Assembly: GCF_900105075.1 (NCBI RefSeq) | Contig: NZ_FNSK01000005.1 | Span: forward strand, 182,223-246,222 | From: Rhodobacter sp. 24-YEA-8 | GTDB taxonomy: Bacteria > Pseudomonadota > Alphaproteobacteria > Rhodobacterales > Rhodobacteraceae | DNA length: 64,000 bases | Reading direction: 5' to 3' | Translations under genes and position numbers: made by a program | Shown here: one piece after another, positions 5,347 to 17,085 of the stretch | Layout of the letters: every line of letters starts with the position of its first letter | How positions within the stretch are numbered: position 1 is the stretch's first letter | The notes under the pieces: model-generated | Seen by the model: only the letters and a program-made list of their open reading frames with translations | The model's database searches: none | Told to the model about the DNA's origin: nothing

Positions 5347-7820
5347 CCGAACTCCCCCCGGGCCTTGCCGCCAACCCGCCGTGGCGCGCCTTGCACCTGC
5401 ACCGCGAGCTGGACCAGATCTGGGGTCGCCCGGCGGGTCTGCGCGGCGTCCTGACCTCGGTCAACCACAGCGAGCTGGGGCTGCGGTTCATGCTGGCCTC
5501 TTTCGTGTTCTTTGCCATTGCAGGCTGTCTCGCCATGCTGATCCGGGCGCAGCTGGCAACACCCGGCGGCGCGTTTCTCGACACAGCACTTTATAACCAG
5601 TTCTTCACCATGCATGGCAGCCTGATGATGTTCCTCTTTGCCATTCCGATGCTGGAAGGGCTGGGGATGTATCTGCTGCCCAAAATGCTCGGGTCGCGCG
5701 ACCTTGCTTTCCCGCGCCTCTCGGCGCTTGGCTGGTGGTGCTATCTCTTCGGGGGTCTGATCATTCTTTCCGCGCTGGTCGCGGGTGTCGCGCCGGATGG
5801 CGGCTGGTTCATGTATACGCCTTTGTCGTCAAAGACCTACAGCCCGGGGATCAATGCCGATGTCTGGCTGCTGGGGGTGACCTTTGTCGAAATCTCGGCG
5901 CTGGCCGCAGCGGTTGAGATCACGGTCACTATCCTCAGAATGCGCGCGCCGGGGATGAAGCTCACGGAAATGCCGCTCTTCGCCTGGTATATGCTGGGGA
6001 CCAGCGCAATGATGCTGGTGGGCTTTCCGCCGCTGATCCTCGGCTCGGTGCTGCTCGAGATCGAGCGCGCCTTTGACTGGCCGTTTTTCGATGTGACGCG
6101 CGGCGGTGACCCTTTGCTCTGGCAGCACCTCTTCTGGCTTTTCGGGCATCCGGAGGTCTATATCATCTTTCTCCCCGCCGCCGGCGCAATCTCGACGATC
6201 CTGCCGGTGATGTGCCGCACAAAGATCATGGGTTATGGCGCCATCGTTGCTGCCGTGCTGGGGCTGGTCTTCCTCTCCTTTGGCCTCTGGGTGCATCACA
6301 TGTTCACAGTGGGCATTCCCCATATGGCGCTGGCGTTCTTCTCGGCGGCCTCGGCGCTGGTGGCGGTGCCGACCGCGGTGCAGATCTTCGCCTGGATCGG
6401 CACGATGTGGCAGGGAAGACCGCAGATGCGGCTGCCGATGCTGCATCTGATGGGGTTCTTCTCGACCTTTGTGATGGGCGGGCTGACCGGCGTGATGCTG
6501 GCGATCGTGCCCTTCAACTGGCAGGCGCATGACACGGCTTTCGTCACCGCCCATCTGCATTATGTGCTGATCGGCGGGTTTGTTTTCCCGATGATGGCGG
6601 CGGCGGTCTACTGGATGCCACTTTTCACCGGGCGCGCGGCGGTGCGTGGTCTGGGGCCTGCGGCTTTCTGGCTGATCCTGATCGGCTTTCACGGCACGTT
6701 CTTCATCATGCATCTGACAGGTCTGCTGGGAATGCCGCGCCGGATCGATGTCTATCCCGACAACCCGGAATGGATCTGGCCCAATCTCGTCAGTTCCTTC
6801 TTCGGCTTTGTGATGGCGGCGGGCTTTGCGCTTTTCGCGCTGGATCTGGTGTTGCAGACGCTGTTCGGCACGAAGGCACGGCGCGATCCCTGGACCGCCG
6901 GTACACTTGAATGGGCGATGCCGATGCCCGCCCCCAGCTACAATATCGCCTCGCTGCCGCTGCCCGGCCAGAGCGCGTTGCAGCTGGCGCGCGGTGAAGG
7001 GCTGCTGCCCGGAGCACCCCGCGCGCGGCGCGAGACGCTGGTGGTCGATGCGATCAGCGGCGCGCCGCGTCATATCGCTGTACTGCCGGGGAATTCCGCG
7101 CTGCCGATTGTGACCGCGGCCGTGATCGGCTGCTTTGTCCTGACGATGCTGTTCGGGCTCTATCTTTTGGCGCCTCTTGGTCTTGTGGCCATCGCGGCAA
7201 TCATCTGGCAGTGGCACCGTTTCATGGGCAGCCCCCGGGATGAGGCGCTGATCAGTCTCGCGCCGGGGCTGAGTCTCCCCGTCAACGCCATGATCCCCGA
7301 CGGGCTGGCGCGGACCGGGCTCACCTGTCTCCTGATCGCGAATGGCACTTTCTTTACCTGCTTTCTCTTCGCAGTCGGGTTCCTCTCGGTCATTGCCCCT
7401 GGCTGGCCCGCACCGCCCTCTGGCATCGCGACCCCTCTCACTGCCGCGCTGACTGCCGTGCTGATCCTGATCCTGATCGCAGCCTCCGGGCTGGCGCGTT
7501 TCCGCCTTGCAGCCGGGGTGCCTATCGCCTTGCCGCTTTTGCTGCTGGGGCTTGGGGCAATCGGCGGTCTGGCATTGCAGCTTGATGATCCGACGCATCA
7601 CGCCCGCGACGCACTGCGCGCGGCCGGGCTTGGCTATGTCGCGCTGCATTGCGCGGTTTCCGCGCTTTTTGCCGGGTTGTGCCTCACGCAACGCCGGGAT
7701 GGCAGGATCGCGCCGGCCCGCCTTTCGGCCTGGCCGATCTGGCGCGCCTGGCAGGATTTCACACTTGCGACCACGCTGATCCTCACGCTTCTCATCACCG
7801 GGCAGGAGATAGTCACATGA
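5343..7820 (+). CDS. Fused heme-copper oxidase subunits I and III
   Basis: An 825-residue polytopic protein. Residues 1 to about 550 are subunit I: heme a ligand in TMHGSLMMFLF, CuB His with cross-linked Tyr in FGHPEVYII, CuB pair in VHHMF, and heme a3 and a ligands in TAHLHYVLIGG. The D-channel Asp (SRDLAFPR) and the GHPEV Glu of A1-type oxidases are present. The K-channel position reads PTAVQIF, so the usual Lys is Gln. The last 275 residues add about seven helices in the place of subunit III, a fusion known in some oxidases. With the CuA-less subunit II before it (4-base overlap) it probably forms a proton-pumping quinol oxidase. Confidence 0.92.
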   Translation: MTELPPGLAANPPWRALHLHRELDQIWGRPAGLRGVLTSVNHSELGLRFMLASFVFFAIAGCLAMLIRAQLATPGGAFLDTALYNQFFTMHGSLMMFLFAIPMLEGLGMYLLPKMLGSRDLAFPRLSALGWWCYLFGGLIILSALVAGVAPDGGWFMYTPLSSKTYSPGINADVWLLGVTFVEISALAAAVEITVTILRMRAPGMKLTEMPLFAWYMLGTSAMMLVGFPPLILGSVLLEIERAFDWPFFDVTRGGDPLLWQHLFWLFGHPEVYIIFLPAAGAISTILPVMCRTKIMGYGAIVAAVLGLVFLSFGLWVHHMFTVGIPHMALAFFSAASALVAVPTAVQIFAWIGTMWQGRPQMRLPMLHLMGFFSTFVMGGLTGVMLAIVPFNWQAHDTAFVTAHLHYVLIGGFVFPMMAAAVYWMPLFTGRAAVRGLGPAAFWLILIGFHGTFFIMHLTGLLGMPRRIDVYPDNPEWIWPNLVSSFFGFVMAAGFALFALDLVLQTLFGTKARRDPWTAGTLEWAMPMPAPSYNIASLPLPGQSALQLARGEGLLPGAPRARRETLVVDAISGAPRHIAVLPGNSALPIVTAAVIGCFVLTMLFGLYLLAPLGLVAIAAIIWQWHRFMGSPRDEALISLAPGLSLPVNAMIPDGLARTGLTCLLIANGTFFTCFLFAVGFLSVIAPGWPAPPSGIATPLTAALTAVLILILIAASGLARFRLAAGVPIALPLLLLGLGAIGGLALQLDDPTHHARDALRAAGLGYVALHCAVSALFAGLCLTQRRDGRIAPARLSAWPIWRAWQDFTLATTLILTLLITGQEIVT

Positions 7821-11201: not shown

Positions 11202-11408
11202 GAGCTCTCACCGCGAAGAGGCGGCAGAAAGCACTGTGACCGCAATTCCACGGCCGCCAACGCGGTATCTGGTAGCTTTATCGCCCGAGGGGTCTCTCCG
11301 TTGTATCGCAATGGTCCCACAGAGGTCAGGCAGGTGCTTTATTCAGGCTGTTATAAATGGTGGAACCGGGTAAACTGACTGTCGAGGCTTGCATGCTGGA
11401 TTGTGACG

Positions 11409-11630
11409 ATGAGTAACTCTGTAATTCCGTTCCCTGGCTCCGATCCGGAGCGGATTTCCGAAGAGGAAGACCCGATACGGGCCGCACGCCAGGAACTGCT
11501 GTCAGCGGTTATGGCTCAGCCGGTTCCGGATCGGCTGAATGCGCTCGCTGCCGAAGTCGGCAGGGCGCTTGACCAGCGTTCAGCGGACCTCTCTTCCGGT
11601 CAGGGTACAGCAACAGACGATACCGCCTGA
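11409..11630 (+). CDS. nepR: Anti-sigma factor NepR
   Basis: A 73-residue protein with the NepR core: a helix ending in RQELLSAVMAQ, the diagnostic PVPDRLNAL turn, and a second short helix (AAEVGRALDQ). NepR holds the sigma factor EcfG inactive; when stress triggers phosphorylation of PhyR, the sigma-like part of PhyR takes NepR away and EcfG is freed. Flanking residues are acidic and probably disordered, as is usual. The gene lies directly before ecfG on the same strand, the standard order. ATG 11409 is chosen; a GTG two codons earlier is possible. The ribosome site is weak. No clear EcfG promoter precedes it. Confidence 0.88.
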   Translation: MSNSVIPFPGSDPERISEEEDPIRAARQELLSAVMAQPVPDRLNALAAEVGRALDQRSADLSSGQGTATDDTA

Positions 11631-11668: not shown

Positions 11669-11693
11669 GGAACTTAACTCTCCCGGTCCCGTT
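11669..11693 (+). promoter_or_regulatory. EcfG promoter between nepR and ecfG
   Basis: GGAAC at 11669-11673, 16-base spacer, CGTT at 11690-11693: a full match to the EcfG promoter type. Transcription would start near 11700, giving a leader of about 25 bases to ATG 11726. This implies ecfG activates itself separately from nepR. Confidence 0.85.
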
Positions 11694-11725
11694 TCCCTTT
11701 CATGCAGAAGAATAGGGAGACGATC

Positions 11726-12265
11726 ATGACCATCTCGAAGCAGACACGACCGCAGGACGGAGCAGCTTCGGAGAATGTGGTCGAAATGATCCCGTTTCTC
11801 CGCATCTATGCGCGCAACCTGACACGCGGCGGGCCACAGGCCGATGACCTCGTCCAGGAAACGCTTGTGAAGGCGCTTGCAAATATTGACCGCTTTCAGC
11901 CAGGCACCAATCTTCGGGCCTGGCTTTTTACGATCATGCGCAACAGCTTTCTGACCGGCATCATGAAAAGAACCCGCGAGCCGGTTGGCGGTCAGGACTG
12001 TGTCTCAGGCCAGGTGATATCTTTTCCCGTACATGACGCACATATTGCCTGCAGCCGGGTGATGCAGGCGATCCGGCGGCTGCCGTCGCAGTACCGGGAA
12101 GCCCTGGTACTCGTCTTTCTGGTGGGCGAGAGCTATCAGGATGTGGCGCGGATCTGCGATTGCGCCGTCGGCACCGTGAAAAGCCGGATCAGCCGCGGCC
12201 GGCAAATGCTGATGGATGATCTGCAGATGACTGAGTTGCGCGACCTGATCGCCGTCAACTACTAG
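11726..12265 (+). CDS. ecfG: General stress sigma factor EcfG (ECF15-type)
   Basis: A 179-residue ECF sigma factor. Region 2 runs from about residue 22 to 90 with ADDLVQETLVKAL and NLRAWLFTIMRNSFL; region 4 covers about 115-170 with LPSQYREALVLVFLVGESYQ and the helix-turn-helix VGTVKSRISRGRQML. It directs RNA polymerase to GGAAC...GTT promoters. The pairing with nepR marks it as EcfG rather than another ECF type. I chose ATG 11726 because GGGAG precedes it and because the promoter at 11669-11693 would start RNA only at about 11700; the ATG at 11702 would then have no leader. Ten motif-type promoters in this window are its likely targets. Confidence 0.93.
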   Translation: MTISKQTRPQDGAASENVVEMIPFLRIYARNLTRGGPQADDLVQETLVKALANIDRFQPGTNLRAWLFTIMRNSFLTGIMKRTREPVGGQDCVSGQVISFPVHDAHIACSRVMQAIRRLPSQYREALVLVFLVGESYQDVARICDCAVGTVKSRISRGRQMLMDDLQMTELRDLIAVNY

Positions 12266-12415: not shown

Positions 12416-14005
12416 TCAGATTGGCAATGAGATCGTGCAGAGGATCCCGTCCGGACCGGTCCGGAAGGTGGTGGCCGCATCAAGCTGATAGGGCAATGCG
12501 CGCTCTATCAGTTCGCGCCCCTGCCCCCAGGCAGGTTCGGCCCCGGGCATAGAGACACCCGTTTCACGCCACAGGATATGCAACCGTGATGGGGCGTTCC
12601 CCTCGATCCGCCAGCCAATATGCAGATGTCCCGCCGCCGATCCCAAAGCACCGTGCTGCACCGCATTGGTGGCAAGTTCATGCAGGGCCATGGCCAGCAA
12701 CTGCACTGCGGAAGGCCTCAGTGACACATCTAAGGGGCCTTCAAGGCTCACGCTTTTGCCAGAATCCGCGCCGACAGCCGAAAGCGCGGCCTGCACCAGC
12801 GCGTCGAAACCGAGGCCTGAATTCCCGTCGAGATCCGAGAGAAGGCCCTGTACCCGCGCGAGCATCTCGAGTCGGTCCCGGAAACGCCGCCCGAAATCCT
12901 CCAGATCGCGCGCAGATTTCAGGGTGCGCTGTGAAACCTGACGCACCACGGAAAGCAGGTTGCGTGTCCTGTGCTGAAGTTCCCCGACCAGCGCCCGCTG
13001 CTGTTCCTGCAGGCTGAGCAATTCGTTTATATCTGTCGAGGTCCCCAGCCATTCAATGATCTTCCCGTCGCAGTCGCGCACAGCGGTGGCGCGCGTCCGA
13101 AACCAGCGCCATCCCCCCTCCGTGGCATCCATCAGCCGGAAATCAGCTGCAAAGCCCTGCGTTTCCGTTGCGCCTGTGGCAGCGGCCCAGGCTTTCCGCA
13201 GAGCATCCAGATCGTCGGGATGCGCCTGTATCTGCCAGCCCTCGCCCAGAGCGCTTTCCAGAGGCTGACCGGTACAGGTGGTCCATTGCGGGCAGACCCA
13301 GGTCCATAAGCCGCGCGGATCGGCACGCCAGAACAGCTGTGGCAACCCTTCCATCAGGCTGTGCAGCCGCGCCGCGCTGTCTTGCCGCGCGCGTTCGGCT
13401 TTGCGGAGGCCCGCCTTGGGCAGGCCCGCAAGACTGCCGATACAGCGGTCGATTTCAGCGGCGATACGGTCTGGTGTGTCGCGGATGTCAGGAAAGCCCG
13501 GATCCCATTCCCCGATTGTCAGACCGCCGCAGTCCTGCACGGCCCTCAGCCCGACTATGCCCTCGGCATGCAGCCCATTGAGCAGGACAGCGACCGCATG
13601 ACGCCCCCCAGCCCGCGCGATGGAAGCGAACAATGTGTCGACGGCCCCGGTCGTCTCACCTGCCGGGGGATCGCGCACAGACAGGTGATCGGCCTCAAGT
13701 GTCAGCAGGTGGTCAGGGCCGGCGATGTAAACATGCTCTGGCAAAAGGCGCGCGCCGTCTTCGGCCATAGCGACCTTCAGGGAGGTGACAGCCGCAGCCC
13801 GGGCAAGGATATCGGCACAGAATTTGCGGTCTTCGCCGCCAATCGCAACCAGGTAAGCGCCACCATGACCAGGCTTTATCGCGGCGAGGACAGCCAGAAA
13901 CGAGGCGAGTGAGATCGCGGAGATTCCGATGCCAATTACTGCCGTAACCTCGGGGGGAAGATCTGCGGGATCCTTCGTCGGATCAGGAAAGGAAGCATCG
14001 TTCAT
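12416..14005 (-). CDS. HWE histidine kinase with degenerate CheB-like domain and PAS
   Basis: A 529-residue sensor kinase. Residues 20-195 resemble the CheB methylesterase fold (VIGIGISAIS at the catalytic serine loop, HVYIAGPDHLL, VAVLLNGLHAEGIVGLRAV), but the family's catalytic His (usually in a QH pair) is missing at LVAIGG and the catalytic Asp of the GxxxDG motif is Glu. A PAS domain follows (about 215-325), then the HWE kinase core: H-box GELQHRTRNLLSVV, N-box HELATNAVQHGAL, and WRETG. Such kinases often phosphorylate PhyR or single-domain receivers in the general stress response. It lies 84 bases after the receiver gene at 14653-14090 on the same strand and is convergent to ecfG, so a role upstream of EcfG is likely. 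Confidence 0.87.
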   Translation of the reverse strand: MNDASFPDPTKDPADLPPEVTAVIGIGISAISLASFLAVLAAIKPGHGGAYLVAIGGEDRKFCADILARAAAVTSLKVAMAEDGARLLPEHVYIAGPDHLLTLEADHLSVRDPPAGETTGAVDTLFASIARAGGRHAVAVLLNGLHAEGIVGLRAVQDCGGLTIGEWDPGFPDIRDTPDRIAAEIDRCIGSLAGLPKAGLRKAERARQDSAARLHSLMEGLPQLFWRADPRGLWTWVCPQWTTCTGQPLESALGEGWQIQAHPDDLDALRKAWAAATGATETQGFAADFRLMDATEGGWRWFRTRATAVRDCDGKIIEWLGTSTDINELLSLQEQQRALVGELQHRTRNLLSVVRQVSQRTLKSARDLEDFGRRFRDRLEMLARVQGLLSDLDGNSGLGFDALVQAALSAVGADSGKSVSLEGPLDVSLRPSAVQLLAMALHELATNAVQHGALGSAAGHLHIGWRIEGNAPSRLHILWRETGVSMPGAEPAWGQGRELIERALPYQLDAATTFRTGPDGILCTISLPI

Positions 14006-14089: not shown

Positions 14090-14653
14090 TCATTGCAGGA
14101 ACTCACGGCCTCGCTCTGCCAGAACACGTTCCATCAGCCGTTGCAGCCATTTTTCCAGTGGAGGCAGCGTTGCCAGGCTGTGATGTTCCCGCAAGGCGAG
14201 CCTCAAAGTCGCCTCGACCAGCCGGTCTGCGGCCATCGCGTCGGAAAGCATCAGCCGCGCCGAGAGCCTGAGCCTCGGCAGAAGGGCGATCAGCGTCTGC
14301 GTATGGATCTGGCTTTGCAAAAGCGCCACAGCCTTGCTGGCTTCATGTGGTTTGGGCAGGCGCGCGATATGGGCGAACCGTCGCGGGATTCTGGCAATTT
14401 CATGTGCCGAGTAAAACACGAAGGGAATGGCTGCGCCCATCAAAAGATCGGCCAGCGGATAGACCTTCTGTCCCCGCAAATTGACATCCAGCACCGCAAG
14501 ATCGGTGTCCCCGACATAATCCGTGGCCTCGATGATTGATGGAAACGGCCCAAGCACCCTGGCCTTTGCCGCCCGGAAATGATCAGCGAGTTCGGAGGCG
14601 ACATAGTAGTCATCCTCGACGATCATGATTGTGCGGCCAGAAAGGTTTTGCAT
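14090..14653 (-). CDS. Receiver protein with C-terminal sigma-region-2-like domain
   Basis: A 187-residue response regulator. Residues 7-115 are a complete receiver (acidic E13-D14-D15, acceptor D56 in VLDVNLRG, S82, K101). Residues 121-181 align with sigma region 2: PRLRLSARLML, then ADRLVEATLRLAL and LEKWLQRLMERVL, against EcfG's PFLRIYARNLT, ADDLVQETLVKAL and LRAWLFTIMRNSF. Canonical PhyR has the sigma-like part first and the receiver last, with both sigma 2 and 4 parts; here the order is reversed and no sigma 4 part is seen. It lies 1.8 kb from nepR-ecfG in a kinase-receiver group. It may be this organism's PhyR-like NepR antagonist, or a modulator. The ribosome site is weak. Confidence 0.8.
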   Translation of the reverse strand: MQNLSGRTIMIVEDDYYVASELADHFRAAKARVLGPFPSIIEATDYVGDTDLAVLDVNLRGQKVYPLADLLMGAAIPFVFYSAHEIARIPRRFAHIARLPKPHEASKAVALLQSQIHTQTLIALLPRLRLSARLMLSDAMAADRLVEATLRLALREHHSLATLPPLEKWLQRLMERVLAERGREFLQ

Positions 14654-14797: not shown

Positions 14798-14859
14798 TCC
14801 ATGCGCGGCGAATCTGCGGATATCCGCCTGGCAAAGATCTGCCTGTCCTGCAAGACGGG

Positions 14860-15213
14860 TCAGAGATCCACTGGTTTTCTAAGACGGGGAATTTCGGCAT
14901 AGGCCGCCGGCAAAGAGGCTGTGTTATATCCGGTCATGAAAAGGAATGGGATCCCCGCAGCAATGAGGTGATCGGCCAGCGGAAATACCATCTCGCCCCT
15001 CAGATTGACGTCGAGCATGGCAAAATCCGGTTTTGCACCAGCGCACACACTGCTCAGTGCTTCGCTCAGCGTCGGAAAGGGGCCGATCACACAGGCCCCG
15101 CCCCGTTGCAGAAACTGTGCAAGATCAGTGGCCAGAAGATACTCATCCTCGACGACAAGGACAGATATTCCACTCAATGCAGGCAGAAGTGAGCTCAGAT
15201 CCGGGTTCCTCAT
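14860..15213 (-). CDS. Single-domain response regulator
   Basis: A 117-residue receiver with no output domain. Acidic pair E22-D23, acceptor D68 in MLDVNLRG, T94 in FMTGY and K113 are present. The PFLFMTGY segment resembles the FAT-GUY receivers (such as SdrG) that feed the general stress response in sphingomonads. The protein stops two or three residues after the conserved KP, so the last helix is missing or very short. AAGGAG before ATG 15213 sets the start; an upstream extension has no ribosome site. It is the first of three leftward signalling genes (15213-14860, 14653-14090, 14005-12416). Confidence 0.82.
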   Translation of the reverse strand: MRNPDLSSLLPALSGISVLVVEDEYLLATDLAQFLQRGGACVIGPFPTLSEALSSVCAGAKPDFAMLDVNLRGEMVFPLADHLIAAGIPFLFMTGYNTASLPAAYAEIPRLRKPVDL

Positions 15214-15283
15214 GGGATCATACTCCTTCGCTTTGCGTAAGACAGTAATCGCGTGAAGCCACACTCCAGGTCGCTCGCATGCG

Positions 15284-15308
15284 GGAACAAACCGCTGTTC
15301 TGATTGTT
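15284..15308 (+). promoter_or_regulatory. EcfG-type promoter upstream of the broken SDR gene
   Basis: GGAAC at 15284-15288, 16-base spacer, TGTT at 15305-15308, about 33 bases before ATG 15341. The first -10 base differs from the C or G seen at the other sites. Confidence 0.55.
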
Positions 15309-15340
15309 CACGCAGCAATCTCTAAAGCGGAGGATATGAC

Positions 15341-16039
15341 ATGCGCAATTCTTCTGACCAGACGGAACCGCCCACCATTATCGCCAACGCGCCGGGACAT
15401 GACAAAACCGGCGAGGGGACGGACAAGGGAAGCTGCCGAAATACTTCGATTTCCCGGGGCCAACCTCCCCGGAACAGGTTCAGGATCTGCCCGGCAGCTT
15501 CCGGATGATGCAGCCCCCGTCGGATCATGGTGAAGAAACCTGGATCGGCGCCGGTCGGCTTGAAGGTTTGGTAGCGGTGATCACTGGCGCCGAAAGCGGT
15601 ATCGGTCGGGCGGTTGCCATTGCCTATGCGCGCGAAGGGGCAGATGTCGTGCTGGCTGACCAGGGCGGCTGTGCAGCATATGCGGCGTGGCAGTTCCATC
15701 ATCAACACGGCCTCGATCAATGCCGATATGCCAGATCCGGCCCTGCTGGCCTACGCGACCACCAAAGGGGCTGTTCAGAATTTCACCGGCGGCCTGGCGC
15801 AATTGCTGGCGGAAAAGGGGATCCGGGTGAACTGCGTCGCCCCCGGCCCGGTCTGGACCCCGTTGATACCGGCCAGCATGTCCGCCGACAAAGTCTCCGG
15901 GTTCGGTGAAAACTACCCGATGAAGCGTCCGGCACAGCCGGTGGAGCTGGCCTCGGCCTATGTGATGCTGGCAGAACCGATGTCGAGCTATATCTCGGGC
16001 GCCACCCTGGCCGTGACTGGTGGCAGACCGCTGATCTGA
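15341..16039 (+). pseudogene. Broken SDR oxidoreductase (stress type)
   Basis: Remains of a short-chain dehydrogenase of the YghA/general-stress-39 type. ATG 15341 follows GGAGG but is in a different frame from the body, which reads on from about 15430 with FDFPGPTSPEQVQDLPG and the Rossmann motif TGAESGIGRAVAIAYAREG. At about 15660 the text jumps from VVLAD straight to TRAAVQHM in another frame; about 95 residues (roughly 280 bases) of the NAD-binding and catalytic middle are missing. The end is intact: INTASINA, catalytic YATTKG, SGATLAVTGG. At least one frameshift plus the deletion make it inactive. Its 3' end overlaps the convergent kinase gene by 52 bases. Confidence 0.85.
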
Positions 16040-17085
16040 TCTGCGGGCTCCAGCCCGATGGCGGAGGATCGCAGCGTGAAAACCACGCCTGCGGGGTCGA
16101 ATTTCAAAAGCGCCTCGCCCCGGAACTCATGACTGAGCGCGGCTTCGATCAGCTCCCGCCCGAAGCCGCTGGTTGCGGGCTCGATAACGGGGGGGCCACC
16201 AACTTCGCGCCAGACCAGCTCGAACTGGCCACGCCGCTGCGTCCATTCGATCAGCACGCGGCCCTTGTCATCCGACCAGGCCCCGTATTTCTGAGCATTG
16301 GTCGCCAGTTCTCCCAAAGCAAGGCTCAGCGCGAACACCTGGTCGGCCTCGATCATCACAGGCGGACCGCGCATGACAAGCCGGTTTTCAGGCAGACTGC
16401 CGGCAAGGGCATCGGCAATAAGCGTGCGGATGTCGAGCGTGCCATAGGCATCCGCAAGAAGCGCCCGCTGCGCCTGGTCAAGCTGACACAGCCGTCTGAC
16501 AGCGGCTTCCTTTGCTTCTTCGACCGATCTGGCCTGACGGAAGGTCAGCCGCACGATCGCAATGGCTTTCGCATAGGCATTCTTGATCCTGTGGCGCAAT
16601 TCCCCGTTCAGGATGCTGCTGCGGCGGGCGGTCATAACCTCGCCAGTCGTCTCGATAACGGTGTTCATGAACCCCGAAATCACGCCGTTCTCATCGGCGA
16701 CCGGGCTGTAGCAAAAGGTGAACCACCCGGTTTCATTGCCTTCTCCGCGTTCGATCTGCAGCTCATAATTGCGGATGAAGGTCGAATGCCCTTGCAGCGC
16801 CCGGTCCGCGATCGGCCCGATCTCGTGCCAGGCTTCGGCCCAGATCTTACTGAACGGCTGGCCAAGGCAGGGTGCCTTACGCCCGAGGATCGGCACAAAT
16901 GCATCATTGTAGATCGTGATCATTTCAGGTCCCCAGCACAGACATTTGGGGAAGTCGGATCGCAGGATCAGGTCAGATGTGATGCGCAGGGCGACCGGCC
17001 AGCCAGCCTGCGACCCGAGCGGCGTTATGCTCCAGTCAAATTCACGAACCTGGGCGTTCATGGCCCGATCAGTTTTGCTGTCCAT
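15988..17085 (-). CDS. PAS-HWE histidine kinase
   Basis: A 365-residue cytoplasmic kinase. The N-terminal 150 residues are a PAS-like sensor of the type common in HWE kinases (WSITPLGSQAGWP, CLCWGPEMITIYNDA, IWAEAWHEIGPI). The kinase core has the H-box GELRHRIKNAYAKAI, N-box LGELATNAQKYGAW and WREVGGP. No membrane segment is seen. A 25-residue tail follows the ATPase domain. The start could be ATG 17085 or the ATG eight codons later; neither has a good ribosome site. It is convergent with the broken SDR gene and near other stress signalling genes, so it may phosphorylate the local receivers. Confidence 0.85.
   Translation of the reverse strand: MDSKTDRAMNAQVREFDWSITPLGSQAGWPVALRITSDLILRSDFPKCLCWGPEMITIYNDAFVPILGRKAPCLGQPFSKIWAEAWHEIGPIADRALQGHSTFIRNYELQIERGEGNETGWFTFCYSPVADENGVISGFMNTVIETTGEVMTARRSSILNGELRHRIKNAYAKAIAIVRLTFRQARSVEEAKEAAVRRLCQLDQAQRALLADAYGTLDIRTLIADALAGSLPENRLVMRGPPVMIEADQVFALSLALGELATNAQKYGAWSDDKGRVLIEWTQRRGQFELVWREVGGPPVIEPATSGFGRELIEAALSHEFRGEALLKFDPAGVVFTLRSSAIGLEPADQISGLPPVTARVAPEI

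Follow-up and report, generated by a model that had tools for sequence, protein, structure and literature searches.

A 187-residue protein from Rhodobacter sp. 24-YEA-8, here called REC-σ2, joins a receiver domain to a C-terminal domain related to region 2 of EcfG-type sigma factors. We propose that it is probably a σ2 mimic under the control of phosphorylation, which would counteract a dedicated NepR-like protein and so free the accessory sigma factor EcfG2. Putative antagonism of NepR had been raised before in the initial annotation, and it is now better founded. In its source genome REC-σ2 is part of an accessory module that exists alongside a full canonical PhyR system; for a small number of other Alphaproteobacteria it may be the sole switch of this type.

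Results

A receiver followed by a sigma region 2 domain

The window (the whole stretch of 64,000 nucleotides that was analysed, G000:C5:182223-246222) comes from a genome of 5.0 Mb in 7 contigs, and its relevant features are collected in Table 1. The initial annotation had described a complete receiver with acceptor D56 and K101, followed at residues 118-187 by a sigma-2-like segment. This held: the reading frame is open as described, the receiver occupies residues 1-112 and precedes the σ2 domain, and among 58 aligned family members position 56 is D in 56 (absent in two) and position 101 is K in 55 (absent in three). The Pfam receiver match of the window protein alone was weak (PF00072, E 0.13), and 29 of the 58 members matched the Pfam receiver family at E<=0.01.

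When the family profile was compared with PDB receivers, it matched 2lpm, which we take to be Sma0114, with E 2.1e-20 and SdrG (5ieb) with E 1e-19, as against 4.5e-10 or worse for PhyR receivers. The profile of the receiver domain matched 14 single-domain receivers found near the family (SDRR) with E 9.1e-43, compared to 5.5e-12 for 31 PhyR receivers and 3.1e-14 for 15 unrelated receivers. Judged by these profiles the receiver is of the SdrG/Sma0114 type, and SdrG, MrrA and Sma0114 (the PFXFATG[G/Y] or FATGUY type) are its closest solved relatives by sequence. Those proteins are single-domain, whereas REC-σ2 adds a σ2 domain, and its motif in the window reads PFVFYSAH in place of the canonical PFXFATG[G/Y]. 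In the literature, PFXFATG[G/Y] is the motif definition for SdrG-type single-domain receivers, and such receivers take part in the general stress response with HWE/HisKA2 kinases (PMC5964349).

The C-terminal part is, on profile evidence, a true sigma-region-2 domain whose relation to sigma factors goes beyond chance across the family. The window protein alone matched PF22029 (PhyR_sigma2) over residues 123-174 with E 6.3e-4 and 20.2 bits, the Pfam cut-off being 27, and 54 of the 58 members matched it at E<=0.01 (best 1.1e-7). HHalign of 30 REC-σ2 C-terminal domains against 13 EcfG paralogues gave E 1.2e-14 (98.3%), compared to 2.2e-6 against PhyR, while three reversed profiles used as controls reached a probability of 0.2-1.1%. 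The EcfG (ECF15) proteins encoded near the family were the closest to this domain among the profiles tried. Residues 119-183 also matched PDB 5uxx_A, an EcfG-type RpoE solved with NepR (E 1.7e-4); the family profile matched 24 PDB sequences in all, and this was the sole sigma factor in that set. In the AF2 model (mean pLDDT 80.6) receiver and σ2 are joined through one long helix, the chain stops after the third σ2 helix, and the predicted fold of the C-terminal part agrees with σ2 domains (Foldseek, VIA-align). Pfam searches with the window protein (E<=1) and with the 58 members (E<=0.01) gave no σ4 family.

In EcfG paralogues the loop preceding the last σ2 helix contains FxPGT, and region 2.2 reads ADDLVQE. 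The REC-σ2 consensus differs from EcfG in both places, as the FxPGT loop is missing and region 2.2 reads AADRLVE (A-D-R-L-V-E-x). The latter motif is not universal, with distant copies reading TGDHLVA (L075, in the PhyR-less genome G050) or RADDLVA (L080). The σ70 residues D403, Q406 and E407 are presumably those that bind core polymerase; the equivalent positions are altered in most REC-σ2 members, with R in 57 of 58 at 144 and E in all 58 at 147. P126, R129, A141, A142, D143 and L145 are likewise invariant in 58/58. By its features REC-σ2 is not an EcfG sigma, the -10 recognition loop being missing and no σ4 having been found, and it is PhyR-like in that its σ2 domain has lost promoter and putative core determinants. 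Because the FxPGT loop is lost, the presumed core-binding positions are changed in most members and no σ4 was found, a mimic fits better than a sigma factor. The sigma-like domain of PhyR is likewise degenerate in sigma functions (PMC8103513).

Between the window copy and those of L082 and L074, the receiver had a dN/dS of about 0.08 and the sigma-2 part one of 0.26-0.30. By this measure both halves are under purifying selection, the receiver evolving more slowly than the σ2 part.

Table 1. Features of the accessory module in the window (positions are those of the window)
Feature	Position	Strand	Evidence
NepR-like gene (75 aa), putative anti-sigma partner	11403..11630	+	NepR-like HMM, HHalign
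EcfG-type promoter-like motif GGAAC-N16-CGTT ahead of ecfG2	11669..11693	+	motif scan
EcfG paralogue EcfG2	11702..12265	+	Pfam Sigma70_r2 and r4; PhyR_sigma2 56 bits
CheB-like/PAS/HWE histidine kinase (529 aa), directly downstream of REC-σ2, same strand	12416..14005	-	Pfam CheB_methylest, PAS_3, HWE_HK
REC-σ2 gene (187 aa, ATG start), receiver then σ2-like domain	14090..14653	-	ORF, family alignment n=58, AF2 model
σ2-like domain of REC-σ2, residues 118-187, three helices	14093..14302	-	PF22029, HHalign, 5uxx_A, AF2, Foldseek, VIA-align, conservation
Receiver domain of REC-σ2, residues 1-112	14318..14653	-	family profile and conserved D/K
K101 codon, within REC-σ2 receiver	14351-14353	-	
D56 codon, within REC-σ2 receiver	14486-14488	-	
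Perfect palindrome GCGGATATCCGC, in conserved non-coding block upstream of REC-σ2	14816..14827	.	
Single-domain receiver, ends at KP of β5 (ORF as listed; start uncertain)	14860..15318	-	
Second HWE kinase (365 aa)	15988..17085	-	Pfam HWE_HK

An accessory module beside a canonical PhyR system

The adjacent NepR, EcfG, HWE kinase and single-domain receiver named in the initial annotation are present as a module, but the "NepR" among them is divergent, reaching 13.1 bits against a Pfam NepR cut-off of 25.7. In the window and in L074, L082 and L083, this NepR-like gene is immediately followed by ecfG2 on the same strand. The start of ecfG2 may be the ATG at 11726 instead of the one tabulated, because the L074 copy, compared by eye, suggests so. 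The CheB-PAS-HWE kinase is proposed as the putative phosphate donor. It is far longer elsewhere than in the window (a 1182-aa paralogue in L074, a 1166-aa copy in L083), and that of G012 is broken into two frames of 213 and 472 aa. The second HWE kinase is kept in L074 and L083/L084 and lies in three frames in L082.

The palindrome upstream of REC-σ2 is kept in L074 and L082, has one change in L083, and is a possible candidate for a regulator site. The single-domain receiver stops right after β5 (RLRKPVDL or similar) in four loci, namely the window (minus strand), L074 10090-10392, L082 9314-9667 and L083 8203-8556, and receivers at five other loci extend about 20 residues beyond KP. Given this stop the protein should be without α5, and it possibly completes itself with a partner. 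The window holds 10 EcfG-type promoter motifs in 64 kb where 1.02 were expected, so that the region looks like a stress-regulon cluster; the motif scan gave no match directly upstream of REC-σ2.

No canonical PhyR was seen within the window, as had been annotated, and the rest of the genome proved to contain one, at G000:C1:1982670-1983455. It lies in a canonical locus on contig C1 with PhyR, NepR, EcfG and a putative sensor kinase, and because of this locus the suggestion that REC-σ2 replaces PhyR is not supported for the source genome. A second copy of the accessory module is found on contig C3, where REC-σ2 is 78% identical, and the same locus is present in a genome of the same genus (G001) and in Paracoccus sp. 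IB05 (L083, L084).

A proposed, divergent NepR-like partner

We regard as a new finding the divergent, putatively NepR-like ORF that is often found near REC-σ2 and is missed by Pfam. An HMM was built from 11 seed ORFs taken from a motif scan of the loci, and the window gene, which is not a seed, matched it with E 1.3e-16. Comparison of this family with canonical NepR by HHalign gave 94% and E 1.3e-7 (reversed control, 1.7%). The two share the E-x-V-P-D-R core, after which LxxLAxxLQxAL follows in the NepR-like ORFs; they differ in that the window copy falls under the Pfam cut-off.

The HMM found such an ORF in 22 of 33 REC-σ2 loci, 11 of them seeds and 11 not. In control searches, shuffled loci (7,346 ORFs) gave nothing above 6.5 bits, and other loci (169,780 bp, 1,262 ORFs) gave one match above 6.0 bits, the ORF at L052 2534-3031 (30.3 bits). 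This ORF lies beside a short receiver in a genome of the same genus (G007), and the NepR-like family may therefore be wider than REC-σ2. Held-out plasmid loci that had not entered the HMM, representing 6 of 14 candidate records (Tistrella, Ensifer, Mesorhizobium, Roseivivax, Paracoccus sp. AK26 and Sinorhizobium chiapasense), all had a NepR-like ORF (6/6, 15.8-33.2 bits). Public annotation of these records reads "response regulator (receiver protein)" or "hypothetical protein", the sixth record being unannotated there.

With a second HMM, a NepR-like ORF was found in 29 of 39 REC-σ2 loci (23 of these 29 had trained it); the ORF was within 200 bp of REC-σ2 in 10 loci, and the other 10 loci had none within the flanks examined. 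The same flanks contained ecfG in 18 of the 39 loci, leaving 21 without it, and an HWE-type kinase in 24. Parts of the module thus recur beside the relatives of REC-σ2, in keeping with the conservation that the initial annotation had put forward as a check. The genes can be very close: in Ensifer adhaerens an annotated small gene (5472-5948) and REC-σ2 (5950-6588) have one base between them, and in G050 the NepR-like ORF and REC-σ2 are 45 bases apart on one strand.

Distribution and genomes without PhyR

The family is patchy, with full-length matches in 3 of the 12 same-genus genomes searched. A pattern scan located at least 26 loci in named genomes of Rhodobacterales, Rhizobiales and unplaced genomes, and of an initial set of 30 carrier genomes all but one (29) had a full canonical PhyR. 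In G050 (99% complete) neither a canonical PhyR nor a NepR over the Pfam cut-off was found, the two strongest PhyR_sigma2 matches, on its contig C1, being sigma factors. This genome keeps together the NepR-like gene, REC-σ2, EcfG, a CheB-HWE kinase and a receiver. It also contains two more REC-σ2 C-terminal remnants, in frame within long unrelated frames (L076 5953-7464, L077 6462-8105), where the gene is apparently disrupted.

Surveying 387 genomes from the class brought to light at least two further carriers, G107 and G296, with a REC-σ2 similar to the one on Tistrella mobilis plasmid pTM2. Neither of these genomes, each 100% complete, yielded a canonical PhyR or a Pfam-level NepR. Altogether 3 of the 32 carriers tested lack both by these searches and keep the REC-σ2 and NepR-like pair, and in these three genomes (G050, G107, G296) it is plausible that REC-σ2 replaces PhyR. 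In the Tistrella-like genome G216, EcfG-type sigma genes are present and searches found no REC-σ2, PhyR or Pfam NepR, which indicates that an EcfG need not be accompanied by a switch of this kind. No NepR-like ORF was found within 3 kb of the EcfG-type genes in G296, G107 and G216 (L186-L188).

Discussion

Proposed mechanism

Like PhyR, REC-σ2 joins a receiver, with conserved phosphoacceptor D and K, to a sigma-like domain without promoter features, lies in a locus with a NepR-like gene, EcfG and an HWE kinase, and is a proposed partner switch. We suggest that an HWE kinase of the module would phosphorylate D56, and that the phosphorylated receiver, acting via the long helix of the predicted model, would expose or orient the σ2 face. 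This face, whose homology to region 2 of the neighbouring EcfG2 is seen at the profile level, would imitate that region and bind the divergent NepR-like protein encoded nearby. EcfG2, thereby freed, would transcribe stress genes. REC-σ2 would thus act like PhyR, with the opposite domain order and without σ4. Binding of the NepR-like protein by σ2 alone is the weakest step of this mechanism. In known complexes of this type the anti-sigma embraces both σ2 and σ4, as does CnrY, whose arrangement is superimposable on PhyR-NepR (PMC4598750), so a lone σ2 may bind weakly, or may contact no more than half of the NepR-like protein.

Alternative explanations

The initial annotation had called REC-σ2 a reversed PhyR-like regulator. 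The order is indeed reversed, since in PhyR σ2 and σ4 precede the receiver, but each half of REC-σ2 is closer to another family than to PhyR. Since the receiver resembles the SdrG/Sma0114 type and the σ2 domain resembles EcfG, each more than PhyR, we favour the reading that REC-σ2 looks like the product of joining an SdrG-type receiver to a region 2 of the EcfG type, separately from PhyR. That REC-σ2 is instead a PhyR with permuted domains and a lost σ4, sharing PhyR's origin and functioning as proposed above, would agree with AU tests in which one joint REC-σ2 and PhyR clade was not rejected (p 0.344 for σ2; p 0.429 for the receivers, with three rows mislabelled). Against it stand the profile comparisons of both domains and the free σ2 tree, in which REC-σ2 (33 rows), PhyR and canonical EcfG each fall into a supported group of their own, albeit on few columns and with long branches. 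We consider a permuted PhyR quite unlikely. It is possible, if somewhat short of probable, that Alphaproteobacteria evolved phosphorylation-controlled sigma mimicry on two separate occasions, in PhyR and in REC-σ2, the latter by joining an SdrG-type receiver to an EcfG-derived σ2. On the same reading REC-σ2, the NepR-like anti-sigma dedicated to it and an accessory EcfG would make up another, insulated partner switch, and in the PhyR-less lineages (G050 and the Tistrella-like G107 and G296) this would be the sole one.

The partner itself could be otherwise understood. Paralogues of NepR in M. extorquens have been proposed to tune the core switch through feedback, two of three co-precipitating with PhyR and none binding σEcfG in two-hybrid assays (PMC4814048). 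By analogy the NepR-like protein might bind the mimic as a decoy and not act as an anti-sigma, so that the two would form a feedback pair tuning the core PhyR-NepR-EcfG switch. The near-universal canonical PhyR of the carriers first tested and the limited share of loci with ecfG in the examined flanks are consistent with this, yet no canonical PhyR was found in three carriers (G050, G107 and G296), and the placement of the NepR-like gene directly ahead of ecfG2 in four loci also speaks against it; we think the decoy unlikely. Another target might be core RNA polymerase, bound by the σ2 face of a phospho-regulated co-sigma (like split SigO-RsoA) or sigma competitor. The σ2 fold and its helix 2 are retained and highly conserved, the distant copy L080 retains ADDLV, and split σ2/σ4 pairs exist (PMC8103513), but with the -10 loop gone and the residues equivalent to the presumed σ70 core contacts replaced at 144 and 147, core binding seems very unlikely. 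It would be just as surprising if the σ2 tail were a vestige, REC-σ2 in effect being an SdrG-like single-domain regulator or phosphate sink whose synteny reflects stress-cluster membership only. Receivers of the SdrG type do join the phosphate flow of the general stress response (PMC5964349), and the receiver is the slower-evolving half, but the invariant σ2 positions and the purifying selection on this part speak against a vestige.

Significance for multiple EcfG systems

Among alphaproteobacterial genomes that had been completed by 2013, about half had at least two EcfG copies, a prevalence that "has not satisfactorily been explained" (PMC3892343). Accessory EcfG proteins away from the core locus have been described in R. 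etli, C. crescentus (SigU) and Sphingomonas (PMC3892343, PMC4814048), and in two species no interaction between EcfG2 and NepR was seen (PMC3892343). The accessory EcfG of the window differs from such non-canonical EcfG2 paralogues in having a NepR-like gene and REC-σ2 beside it. In the open-access PMC literature, no receiver-first, σ2-last protein appeared by title or abstract start among the matches listed.

For part of the multiple EcfGs, the REC-σ2 module offers a testable answer, in which an accessory sigma factor would have its own anti-sigma and its own mimic. It is also a natural test of how little sigma suffices for mimicry, here σ2 alone, and of whether domain order matters. Its reversed domain order and its frequent nearness to a NepR-like gene hint that a familiar kind of stress switch may have been built a second time, independently.
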